From NCBI RefSeq assembly GCF_000328765.2, contig NC_019954.2, forward strand, positions 2,505,780 to 2,569,779: a stretch of DNA of 64,000 nucleotides, in the 5' to 3' direction. Every line of letters starts with the position of its first letter. Position 1 is the stretch's first letter. Below, piece by piece: positions 5,073-60,719 of the stretch. The notes under the pieces are model-generated. The model did not search any database. It worked only from the letters and a program-made list of their open reading frames with translations, and was not told the origin of the DNA. The stretch comes from Tepidanaerobacter acetatoxydans Re1 (GTDB lineage Bacteria; Bacillota; Thermosediminibacteria; Thermosediminibacterales; Tepidanaerobacteraceae). Both the position numbers and the translations under genes were made by a program.

Positions 5073-7319
5073 CTACCATTCAAGAGCTAGCTGTCTTGAT
5101 GCGTTCTTTATCTGCCGAGCTGTTTCTGCCGGGGTAAGGGGAGTAGGACTATTAATGGTGATGTTTTGAGTTATCCCTTTATTACCCCCTAAAATCTCTT
5201 TGGTTTCATGGTCGTTATATATCTTACTTCCCCTTGGAAGCTTTACAAGCTCTGGTCCAAGTTCTCCTACCATAGTAAGCCCACCGGGAAAAAAGCTTGT
5301 TCCACTAAAGTTTGATGCAGCACTGCCACCGGAAGTTACAGTTCTAATAACTCTTGTGATTTTCTCTACAATGCTGAACACTTTTTCTTTTACGGTAGTG
5401 GCGTTCCATTCCTTAATCTTTTCTATGCCTTCCGATATTTTAGATTTAATGCCATCAATACTGTCCGCTACCGAGGATTTGATGCTAGCCCATTTATCCC
5501 TTGTAGAAATCTGCAGTTCTTCCCACCTTCGAGTAACATCTTCCTTTATTTCCTTAACCTTCAGTAGGGTATCTTCTTTCATAGACTGCCAGTTATTTGC
5601 AAGGGATGTCTTTATGTTTTCCCATTTCTCTGAAGTAGCTATCTTTATATCTTCCCATTTCTTTATTACATCTTCTTTTATCTCCTTTGCCTTAGTTGTT
5701 ATATCATCCTTCATTACTTGCCACTTGCTCTTTATTTCTCCTGTCTCCCAGTCCACCTGATTTACATGTTCCTTTGCCTGCATCTTGGCCTCTTCTACCA
5801 CCCGTTGGTGCATTTCCTCTGCTCTGGCTATGGACTCATCTTTTTGCCGGGCAGCTTCCTTAATCAATCTATCTGCCTGGTCTTTGGAGATGATCCCTGC
5901 TTCATCTCTTTGCCGGATGATTTCTTTTACCACTTCGTTGTACTGTTCTTCGGCAGCTTTGATAGTTTTATCCTTTTGCTCAATGCTGTTTTTTACAACT
6001 TCAGCAGCCTGCAAAGCAGTGATTTCACCAGCCTGAGCTCTCATGCGCTCCATGATGGCTTTGGCTTCTATTTCGTTTTCGGATAAGACTTTGATACCGG
6101 TTTCCACCATGGTCCTTTGGATAGCGTTTATTTCTTCCTGCTCGGCTTTGGTTAATGCTCTTTTTTCACCAGATGCAGTATCAAGTATTTCTTTAATCCG
6201 AGCTTCCCCTTCAACTATGGTTTGTTTCCTGCTTTCATAGCCCTGCTGCATATTGTTTAAAATCTCTTCTTGTTCTTTTTTGGATAAAGCAGTGCTGCTA
6301 GTAACAAAGCCCTGCATCTTAGATAAAGACTCTTGATGGTGTTTATCAAGACCTGCTTGAACATCACTTGCCATTTGAGAAAAGTTACCGGCTATTTTCT
6401 GCGCCATGTCTTTGGTCACTTTCTGACCGCTCCAGGAAAGCTGATTTAATGCAAGGGTTGCTTCATCATTGAGCTGTAAAAATCCAGTTACAGCCTCTTG
6501 TGTGGCTTTAGACGTCTCATTGCCAAAAAGCTTAATTTCAGGGATGCTCTCTTGACTTAAGTGTCTATATAGCGCAACACCTGCTGCCGTCACCCCTCCT
6601 ATAGCTGCAACCGCTATCCCCACAGGTCCTGTAAGAACAGTAAAGGCAGTGGCTAAAGCTCCTATTGCCGGGGTAGCAGCTGCCGCTCCGGTAGTAGCAA
6701 CTGCTATGGCACCTGATACTGATGATAAAACCCCTATGACAGAGCCGATACCACCCACCAGCTTGCCGAAAATTAAAAGTAGTGGACCAATGGCAGCTGC
6801 AAGCATACCAATTTTCACGATAGTTTCTTGAGTAGCAGGGCTTAAGTTGGCAAGCCAGTCTACTAATTGCTGCAGCTTTTCCACCAACTTATTTAGATGA
6901 GGGACTAAAATATCAAAGATTTGAATAGCCAAACCCTCTAAGCCTGATTTGAGTATAACGATACTTCCCTGCAGGTTATCTATCATTACATCCGCCATCT
7001 CTTTGGCAGTACCGGTATAGTTCCTGGTAGCTTCCGTCAACTTGGCATAATCTTCATCACTGGCGTTAATGATGGCCAGCATCCCTGCCATGGCTTCTTT
7101 TCCAAAGATGGTGGCAGCGTACTGGGCTTGCTGTTCTTCAGAAAGTCCTGCAAATTTAGACCTTAATTCATCCAGCACATCTTTAAACGGCAGCATTTCT
7201 CCATTGGCATCTGTGATGGAGATGCCTAGTTCATTCATAGCTGTTTTCATCTTGTCAGTGGGATTTGCAAGGTTTGCAATGGCGGTTTTTAAAGAGGTAC
7301 CGGCCTGGCTCGATTTAAT
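5073..7319 (-). CDS. tail tape-measure protein, exon 2 (C-terminal part)
   Basis: This block codes for 748 residues after the intron. It starts at codon ATT AAA (IKSSQAGTSLKTAI), which continues exactly the MANAG sequence that ends exon 1. It holds a hydrophobic segment (IGMLAAAIGPLLLIFGKL and the Gly/Ala-rich run after it), a long helical region rich in Lys and Glu with repeated WE.I..S...W blocks (about residues 480-650 of the exon), and a C-terminal FPGGLTMVGELGPEL motif common in tape-measure proteins. The protein sets tail length and helps DNA passage. An in-frame ORF extends upstream to 7385 but those 22 codons are intron. Spliced length with exon 1 is about 1,074 residues. Confidence 0.88.
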   Translation of the reverse strand: MKSSQAGTSLKTAIANLANPTDKMKTAMNELGISITDANGEMLPFKDVLDELRSKFAGLSEEQQAQYAATIFGKEAMAGMLAIINASDEDYAKLTEATRNYTGTAKEMADVMIDNLQGSIVILKSGLEGLAIQIFDILVPHLNKLVEKLQQLVDWLANLSPATQETIVKIGMLAAAIGPLLLIFGKLVGGIGSVIGVLSSVSGAIAVATTGAAAATPAIGALATAFTVLTGPVGIAVAAIGGVTAAGVALYRHLSQESIPEIKLFGNETSKATQEAVTGFLQLNDEATLALNQLSWSGQKVTKDMAQKIAGNFSQMASDVQAGLDKHHQESLSKMQGFVTSSTALSKKEQEEILNNMQQGYESRKQTIVEGEARIKEILDTASGEKRALTKAEQEEINAIQRTMVETGIKVLSENEIEAKAIMERMRAQAGEITALQAAEVVKNSIEQKDKTIKAAEEQYNEVVKEIIRQRDEAGIISKDQADRLIKEAARQKDESIARAEEMHQRVVEEAKMQAKEHVNQVDWETGEIKSKWQVMKDDITTKAKEIKEDVIKKWEDIKIATSEKWENIKTSLANNWQSMKEDTLLKVKEIKEDVTRRWEELQISTRDKWASIKSSVADSIDGIKSKISEGIEKIKEWNATTVKEKVFSIVEKITRVIRTVTSGGSAASNFSGTSFFPGGLTMVGELGPELVKLPRGSKIYNDHETKEILGGNKGITQNITINSPTPLTPAETARQIKNASRQLALEW

Positions 7320-8642
7320 CAATTGTGTTATCGTAAGGCTCTTTATCCTTACTTCTGGGAGTTTCCCCGCATGACGGGATGTCAATTCATCCCCAGTTCA
7401 GACTATATCTTAACCCTCACCATCATGTGTTAGGGTTCCGCCCATTCGTGGGCATTTGGGCATATAAAAAAGACCCTATTTAAATAGCGTCTTTAATACT
7501 TAGCCTACTTTGCCTAGTCGTTACACCTTCCTAGAGTTTCCTCTTAGGCTTGGCTCGGTATTGTCTTATTGAATATTTGAAAATGCTTGGTCTAGCTTAT
7601 CTATAACCTTTCTCCTAAAAGTATCGGAGTTACTACTTCTAGTGTGTTTTATTCTTAGCAGGGGAATGTCATTTTCCCTACAATAGTGATTTTTAATGCG
7701 ATCGTTTATTTGGATTCTTTCGAAGTTTTTAGCTCCGTTAGGGAATTTAGGGGTAAAATGTTGGGAGCCATCGTACTCTATCAAAAGCTGCAAGTTATGT
7801 TTAGTATCAAAAACTGCAAAATCAAATCGTAAAGGCCTCACATTCCTACAGCCATCCATTTTATATTGCTCTTGATAAAAGACACCTTTTTGTTTCAGGT
7901 AATCTACAACAACATACTCACCGTTTGACCTGTTTTGATCTAAATAGCAATGTGGGCATCTGACACCTTGATTGATAAATCTTGTGGGCAACATCCGGAA
8001 ACTTCTTCCACACTTATGATGAATAAAAGTAGTTTCTTTAGCTGAGCCTTGATAACCTCCAATGATAGCGTACTCATCACCTACTAGATCTTTAATGTGT
8101 GCCTTTACTTCTTCTAATGGTAGCCTATTTGATTCTGCACTCCTGATATACCTTTCGCTTGGACACCTTTGACCTTGATGCAAAAAGGCATTTGGCGACA
8201 TTTCAAATTCTGCCCCACACACGTTATGCCTAAATAATATAGGTGTATGCGTGTTAACATATTCGCCTAAAACTTCGTATTCATCCCCAGCAACATCGTA
8301 AACTTCTTTTTTAAATTGTGGGGTATCCTTGCGAAGGTTATTAGCACATTTGGGACAACCATGCCCGTTCCATAACGGTTCAGGATTAGCTTCCCAAACA
8401 TGCCCGCAGCTGTGTTGTACCAAAACCTTGGTTCTTTTATTTTTATATTCCCCTAATACCTTTATTTCCTTCCCATGTTGTCTTTCTATTCTTTCTATAA
8501 ATTCAGTATGGTTTAATCTTTTCATTGCTAGCTCACCCCCGAACTAAGCAAACCCAGCATTTTGAATATTCAACTTAGATTTCCACCGAATTAGAGCGGT
8601 ATTTTATGCTGCAAGTTTCCCTGCAACCGAGCATGTATTTCT
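7320..8642 (-). mobile_element. group I intron in the tape-measure gene
   Basis: A 1,323-base insertion splits the tape-measure frame so that removing it joins GGT to ATT AAA and restores AG-IKSSQAGTSL. Seen on the minus strand: the 5' exon ends in U; exon CGGGU can pair with intron GCUCG, putting the conserved U.G pair at the 5' splice site (P1); a hairpin of GUUGCAGG with a GAAA loop follows (P2). Near the 3' end ACGACTA (about 7516-7522) and AAGATATAGTC (about 7400-7410) give the P7 pairing GACTA/TAGTC with a typical J8/7. The P8 arms AACCCT/AGGGTT lie between them. The intron ends in G (7320). A homing-endonuclease gene lies in a peripheral loop upstream of P7. Confidence 0.93.
7566..8525 (-). 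CDS. intron-encoded homing endonuclease, Vsr/EDxHD-like, with zinc-finger repeats
   Basis: A 319-residue protein inside the group I intron. Three related units of about 65 residues (Cys near 40, 57 and 60; 103 and 121; 172, 190 and 193) have the HxCG...GxxCPxC form of treble-clef DNA-binding repeats; the second has lost its last Cys (CPS). The C-terminal domain has RFDFAVF (Asp 235), LLIEYDGSQHF (Glu 250, Asp 252, His 256) and a later IQINDRIKNHYC, which fits the Vsr-like EDxHD nucleases known from phage introns (I-Bth0305I type). Known members cut intronless alleles so the intron is copied in by repair. Start ATG 8525 has GGGGGTGAG upstream. Confidence 0.85.
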   Translation of the reverse strand: MKRLNHTEFIERIERQHGKEIKVLGEYKNKRTKVLVQHSCGHVWEANPEPLWNGHGCPKCANNLRKDTPQFKKEVYDVAGDEYEVLGEYVNTHTPILFRHNVCGAEFEMSPNAFLHQGQRCPSERYIRSAESNRLPLEEVKAHIKDLVGDEYAIIGGYQGSAKETTFIHHKCGRSFRMLPTRFINQGVRCPHCYLDQNRSNGEYVVVDYLKQKGVFYQEQYKMDGCRNVRPLRFDFAVFDTKHNLQLLIEYDGSQHFTPKFPNGAKNFERIQINDRIKNHYCRENDIPLLRIKHTRSSNSDTFRRKVIDKLDQAFSNIQ

Positions 8643-9620
8643 ACCCGCATTTGCCATTAGCCCTAGTGCAAGTGCTGCGTCTTCTGCCGAATAACCCAAT
8701 GCACCAAAGAGGGGAGCCACATATTTAAATGACTCCCCCAGCATGGCAACATTTGTGTTACTGTTAGAACTTGCGCTGGCAAGTAAATCTGCAAACTCTC
8801 CGGCTTGTTTTGCCTCCATGCCAAAAGCTGTTAAAGCATCTGTCACGATGTCAGACACTAGACCTAAATCCTCACCGCTTGCTGCTGCAAGCATCATAAC
8901 TCCTTCTAAACCGTCTAGCATCTGGGTTGTATCCCAGCCAGCCATAGACATATACTTTAAGGCTTCGGCAGACTCACTTGCACTAAACTTGGTGGTAGCT
9001 CCCATCTCTTTGGCTTTTTCTTCTAGCTTTTTAAGGTCCTCGCCAGTAGCTCCGCTGATAGCGGCAACCTCACTCATCCCCGCTTCAAAATCAGAGCCTA
9101 CCTTTACTGCTACGCCCCCAAGAGCTGCAAGAGGTGCTGTCACTTTCATAGATAGGTTCTTGCCTACATCCTCCATCTTTTTGCCTGCGTTCTGCAGGGA
9201 CTGTCCTAGAGGCTCTAAGCTCTTGGAAAGCTTATACCATGTAGAGGACTGAAGCTCTATTTCCTGATTTACTTTCTTTAAATCCTGCTCCATATAGGCA
9301 AGCTGTGTCTTTGCCTTATTTAGTTTTATCTCTAAATCCTGGGTAGCTTTAGCGTCGGCTCCCTTAGTCTCTACAGACTTTTGATGGGCTTCTTCTAATG
9401 CCTTTACCTTTTGCCGCTGCAACTCTGTCTGTTTGGTTAGGCTATCAGATTTAAGTTTTAAGCTGTCTAATTCTTTACCATGTTTACCCATCTCGGCACT
9501 TGCCAGCTTAAACTCGGACTGCACCTTTCTCATCTCTCGGTTCAAGCTACTGATGCCGTTTTGAAAACCAGTGGAGTCTAGACCGATTTTTACATTTAGC
9601 TGCCCGATTTCTTTAGCCAA
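8643..9620 (-). CDS. tail tape-measure protein, exon 1 (N-terminal part)
   Basis: Exon 1 gives about 326 residues, beginning at TTG 9620 (LAKEIGQLNVKIGLD), which has AAAGGTGG seven bases upstream; the open frame runs on to a GTG at 9653 without a good ribosome site. It has an N-terminal coiled coil (residues about 20-120), the phrase GLDSTGFQNGISSLNREMRK typical of Firmicutes tape-measure starts, and then the TP901-type domain (GSDFEAGMSEVAAISGATGE, TTKFSASESAEALKYMSMAG). The exon stops after MANAG at 8643; unspliced reading adds 12 residues and then meets a stop, so full protein needs intron removal. Confidence 0.88.
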
Positions 9621-9667
9621 TTTCTCACCACCTTTTGGGTATGAAAAAAGCACCTGATTGCAAGGTG

Positions 9668-60533: not shown

Positions 60534-60587
60534 AATAAGCAATGGAATTTTTAGGCACATTCTTAAGCGGGGATGTACAGCACTTTC

Positions 60588-60676
60588 AAAAAATACCTTT
60601 TCCCACAGAGGCGGAAAAAGGCATTCTTATCCCAACTTATAAAAATGCGTCTAACCTTGCCGGCCTCGCTGGACCA
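60588..60676 (-). promoter_or_regulatory. PyrR-type attenuator
   Basis: On the minus strand GGTCCAGCGAGGCCGGCAAG (about 60655-60674) matches the known PyrR-binding loop consensus (UCC.G.GAGG...AAGG). Some 30 bases on, ATGCCTTTTTCC and GGGAAAAGGTAT (60593-60624) form a 12-base stem followed by six T. In known systems UMP-bound PyrR holds the loop and lets the terminator form. No pyrR gene is in the window. Confidence 0.85.
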
Positions 60677-60719
60677 GATTTAAAGGTGTTGCATTTGGCT
60701 TCGTTTATTTATTTTTTTA

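Follow-up and report, generated by a model that had tools for sequence, protein, structure and literature searches.

EDxHD-type homing endonucleases are exemplified by I-Bth0305I, whose host is an intron of recA. This enzyme and its family have been reviewed (PMC3943268). Introns in phage tape-measure genes have been described in Lactobacillus phage JCL1032 (EU409559), whose introns were reported to be self-splicing (Riipinen and Alatossava 2004, according to the citation in PMC6669764), and in the vibriophage ICP1, where the gene carries three introns and splicing was demonstrated by RNA-seq and RT-PCR (PMC10448857). The locus analyzed here lies in Tepidanaerobacter acetatoxydans Re1, in a stretch of 64,000 nt that is referred to in its entirety as the window, and comprises an intron of 1,323 nt (7320-8642, minus strand) within a TP901-type tape-measure gene, on the strand that carries the prophage tail genes here.

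The intron in JCL1032, where the split gene is annotated, shares with this locus the tape-measure host and the target motif, and its insertion point is only 2 nt away. The two intron cores are 69 % identical over 167 nt. However, the JCL1032 intron measures 322 nt, is ORF-less and uses the exon pairing GGGAU. ICP1 differs by its HNH endonucleases, its Gram-negative host and the presence of three introns. For the endonuclease, the intron-encoded protein A of the Twort terL gene (MT151386, phrog_559) provides a full-length match with 35 % identity and the same layout of fingers and EDxHD core, but it resides in a terminase intron and, by inspection, its ORF is flanked by the two strands of P7 instead of being located in L5. 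I-Bth0305I shares the E-D-H-D residues with the protein and may resemble it in the catalytic fold, whereas the host gene differs and the PDB match is not at the sequence level. Three viral contigs, L091, L108 and L057 (IMG/VR UViGs 2841778323_000002, 3300014039_000058 and 2663763491_000002), have the identical insertion point, NAG|I/V. The endonucleases of L091 and L108 are 53 % and 47 % identical to that of the window, whereas the intron of L057 has 282 nt and no ORF.

The sequence-only reading had proposed an IA-type group I intron with an EDxHD (Vsr-like) endonuclease in the tape-measure gene, and an intronless allele, a covariance model, covariation and structure prediction all agree with this. 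We consider it highly probable (about 0.95) that the locus is an IA-type mobile group I intron that homed into a prophage tape-measure motif, with splicing, cleavage and homing as the activities that we infer for it. The intron RNA would fold into the group I core, a guanosine-driven cut would occur after the exon sequence CGGGU paired in P1, and the exons would be joined and the intron released, yielding the full-length tape-measure protein of 1,085 aa. The ORF in L5 would be translated into the endonuclease, the zinc fingers of which would read the uninterrupted tape-measure sequence, and after cleavage the intronless allele would be repaired from the intron-bearing copy.

Intron boundaries and the tape-measure frame

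The tape-measure gene is present as two open frames on the minus strand (9653-8643 and 7319-5073). Joined without 7320-8642, they give a single 1,085-aa frame with zero internal stops, and the exact restoration of the frame by removing 1,323 bases, as previously claimed, was thereby confirmed. The TP901-type identity is given by the PF10145 and TIGR01760 domain, and in the Pfam search the PF10145 profile runs up to position 128 in exon 1 and continues from 129 in exon 2. Intronless tape-measure alleles had been suggested as a check, and one was found in a congener (locus L009 of genome G002). Here, the gene is in one open frame and aligns to the spliced junction ungapped over 238 nt with 213 identities (89 %). 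At the DNA level, this alignment leaves the intron ends ambiguous by 1 nt. They were therefore set at 8643|8642 and 7320|7319 by the group I rules of a terminal G and a U preceding the 5' splice site, where the 5' exon finishes with GCGGGU, and these ends agree with the coordinates of the sequence-only reading. Reading through from exon 1 into the intron leads to a stop after 12 codons. No clear co-conversion tract was observed around the insertion, as identity along the gene is too variable to tell. The features of the locus are as follows (window positions, minus strand):

8643-9653 (-): 5' exon of the tape-measure gene; 337 codons, with GTG listed as the start codon (PF10145 to position 128, TIGR01760)
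7320-8642 (-): group I intron, 1,323 nt (L009 intronless allele, R1 model, Rfam RF00028)
5073-7319 (-): tape-measure 3' exon, 748 codons (PF10145 129-201; in frame once spliced)
8628-8647 (-): P1, exon CGGGU (8643-8647) with guide GCUCG (8628-8632), U-G wobble at the splice site
8610-8625 (-): P2 hairpin UGCAGG-GAAA-CUUGCA
8604-8606 (-): in-frame stop UAA met by ribosomes leaving exon 1 (sequence)
8594-8599 (-): P3 5' strand CCGCUC; partner GGGCGG at 7438-7443
8584-8590 (-): P4 5' strand UUCGGUG; partner UACCGAG at 7554-7560
8556-8573 (-): P5 5' strand; partner at 7569-7587; ORF between both strands, in L5
8532-8540 (-): putative Shine-Dalgarno-like GGGGGUGAG preceding the ATG of the endonuclease, within a small hairpin of the predicted structure (sequence and fold)
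7566-8525 (-): EDxHD homing endonuclease ORF, 319 aa; final codons overlap the P5 3' strand
7511-7554 (-): P6/P6a (GCC/GGU; P6a capped by GAAA), P7 5' strand GACUA (7515-7519), P7.1 5' strand GGCA (7511-7514)
7446-7514 (-): P7.1/P7.1a stem, GGCA/UGCC and GGC/GCC; GAUA/UAUC and AGC/GCU in relatives (alignment A3)
7409-7437 (-): P8, AACCCU/AGGGUU
7401-7405 (-): P7 3' strand UAGUC within AAGAUAUAGUCUGAAC
7333-7398 (-): P9, with an insertion of about 25 nt absent in relatives, and P9.2 GUAAGG/CCUUAC
7320 (-): intron terminal G (the R1 match stops here)

Two further observations were made in this context. The 5' fragment of a related tape-measure gene, interrupted by stops in frame, occurs in another genome of the genus (L011, G001) and probably belongs to a decayed prophage. 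Outside the prophage tail region, the window contains a PyrR binding site at 60586-60690 on the minus strand (RF00515, 57.4 bits).

The endonuclease and the probable mobility of the intron

The endonuclease matches phrog_559 with an E-value of 4e-79, and its Pfam matches are CapR, DUF4379 and DUF2726. A tblastn search returned 529 phage records, 335 of them over at least 80 % of the length, including the Twort terminase intron protein. Sequence searches of the PDB with the endonuclease gave no useful match. With the AlphaFold model (pLDDT 92), Foldseek reported the catalytic domain of I-Bth0305I (3r3p) with a probability of 0.99 and a TM-score of 0.63 by target length, at an E-value of only 0.078. 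In 35 sequences, the catalytic residue E203 is conserved in more than 90 %, and D235, H256 and D275 are invariant.

The protein contains three treble-clef repeats, as had been read from the sequence, and the second lacks its last cysteine (CPSE). One repeat had been described as partly degraded, but the CPxERY motif of the second is common to the three nearest relatives, which makes it a feature of the clade and not decay of the window copy. Treble-clef matches were found in 29 of 35 aligned relatives. The combination of zinc fingers with an EDxHD core had been regarded as unusual, but together with the 529 matching phage records these sequence comparisons show that it is the norm among endonucleases of this family.

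An intron that splices but is immobile, with an endonuclease inactivated, for example, by the lost finger cysteine, and that is passively inherited with the prophage, appears unlikely. The incomplete second finger would fit this, as would the persistence of the ORF-less L057 intron at the same site and the single genomic copy, a scan of the genome with the covariance model R1 described below having found no second match. Nevertheless, the ORF is full length, none of its catalytic residues is missing, and the altered finger, being clade-wide, does not represent fresh decay. A scan of genome contigs with an alignment of four endonuclease sequences yielded one distant locus only.

The group I core and the position of the ORF

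At the gathering threshold, Rfam gave no match at the intron. In a permissive local scan, Intron_gpI (RF00028) was the sole result from a curated model, with 22.4 bits and an E-value of 0.0045 at a cutoff of 50. The low score is likely due to the ORF of about 1 kb, which places the 5' strands of P3, P4 and P5 far from their partners. A covariance model, R1, was built from 15 related introns (alignment A4), gathered by a pattern for the conserved 3' end and from phage records, with the window excluded. It matched the 3' domain (7566-7320) with 185.1 bits and an E-value of 1.2e-49, ending exactly at 7320, while the runner-up match reached 7.7 bits. The high covariance score predicted by the sequence-only reading was thus obtained with R1, but not with the stock Rfam model, which remained below its cutoff. 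Taking an absent covariance match as refutation, as had been proposed, would misfire at the stock gathering threshold, the most likely reason being the interruption of the model by the ORF. Stock Rfam thresholds can therefore overlook introns with an ORF inside P4/P5.

The helix arms were first picked by hand to pair. For this reason, weight is placed on the R1 match, the covariation counts and the unconstrained fold. Among the relatives, 28 of the 42 pairs show changes in both partners. Double changes were counted in 131 cells, compared to 41.9 in shuffles and 6 to 20 for slid structures. The window contributes a covarying change of its own in P7.1, where it has GGCA/UGCC and most relatives have GAUA/UAUC. 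Unconstrained folding of the ORF-trimmed intron recovered P1, P2, P3, P4, P5, P6a, P7.1, P7.1a, P8, the P9 hairpin and P9.2. The conserved core of P3, P4, P6, P7 and P8 is present, with P7 formed by GACUA/UAGUC. Every element recognized earlier (P1, P2, P7, P8 and the terminal G) is present, and the same holds for P5, P6a, P7.1/P7.1a, P9 and P9.2. P1 is identical in the introns at the same site, and P1 and exon have changed together in JCL1032 and L148. The location of P7.1, together with P7.1a, between P7 and P3 and the covariation of GGCA/UGCC and GGC/GCC support the assignment to group I, type IA, made for IA as a whole, with IA1 and IA2 taken together.

The additional 25 nt or so (GATGAATTGACATCCCGTCATGCGG) carried by P9 at window 7352-7398 are themselves capable of forming hairpins. 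A dispersed repeat was rejected as their origin, as the genome contains only one copy of them. Variation in peripheral P9 elements is common. It is very improbable that splicing has been lost, for example through this insertion, leaving a broken tape-measure gene and a defective prophage. The insertion is unique to the window copy, but it affects a peripheral and often variable element, all core helices are intact, the R1 score is high, and each exon retains an intact open frame with its half of the conserved domain. A gene split by an intein or by a free-standing endonuclease without an intron would look similar at first, with an endonuclease gene flanked by the halves of another gene, but both can be dismissed. 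The stop 12 codons into the insert rules out the intein, and a group I core that covaries and has exact ends rules out the bare endonuclease gene.

Within the intron, the ORF lies between the P5 strands, with its final codons forming the P5 3' strand. In the ORF-less intron L057, inserted at the identical tape-measure position, a short P5 hairpin takes the place of the ORF, which supports L5 as the region where the ORF was gained or lost. The ORFs of L091 (3468-4502), L108 (2615-3640) and L155 (1060-2055) continue across P4' and P6 into P7, where they end with CND and a stop, and their codons overlap the catalytic core. Intron ORFs overlapping the ribozyme core are already known (PMC3984707). 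No sigma-70-like promoter for the endonuclease was found inside the intron on its own strand. An intron of the same type in the portal region of Clostridioides phage CD1801 (L035 2250-3140) has a long L5 resembling a decayed ORF and is unannotated in the record.

Insertion sites in tape-measure genes

The insertion point lies in the most conserved tape-measure motif, NAG|IKxSQAGT. About 16 to 17 of the 120 loci found by the pattern are in tape-measure genes, which is not an unbiased frequency because the pattern was derived from the window intron. Besides the three contigs with the identical insertion point, near-identical sites are used in L148 (2 nt away) and L194/L203 (about 1 nt away), the latter two originating from the endonuclease search and not from the pattern. 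In L067, L155 and L158, the intron is inserted at a second site, some 90 nt further upstream. Other hosts of this intron type include portal and tail-tube genes, two of the tail-tube cases being judged by neighboring genes. The earlier view of the tape-measure gene as an uncommon host is contradicted by JCL1032, ICP1 and the further viral contigs, and such a host is not rare for this intron lineage. The site itself is usually empty, as in 796 of 833 phage records a single match covers at least 80 % of the surrounding 137-aa region.

In the endonuclease tree, the four closest sequences (window, L091, L108 and L155) form a clade with 100/100 support, all located in tape-measure introns, and L155, from the second site, is sister to L091. 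The chances are about even that the motif NAG|IKGSQAGT is a recurrent homing target of several endonuclease lineages and that this clade is a tape-measure specialist which moved with its intron between the two sites, both preceded by GGGU at the splice point. A tape-measure-specific endonuclease clade using two nearby sites would be mildly new, while there are precedents both for the host gene and for the design of the endonuclease. The L009 intronless allele, the same-site relatives with and without an ORF and the sister-clade endonuclease at the second site form a convenient set for site choice by EDxHD enzymes and ORF gain in L5.

In the viral contigs L041 and L076, the tape-measure domain is divided among four or five short open frames and several group I introns appear to be present, although only two were seen by motif in L041. 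Two species of one genus (L242 in G397, L243/L273 in G359) have a tail-tube-like gene with an intron of the same type, which is accompanied by an endonuclease in only one of the two species.
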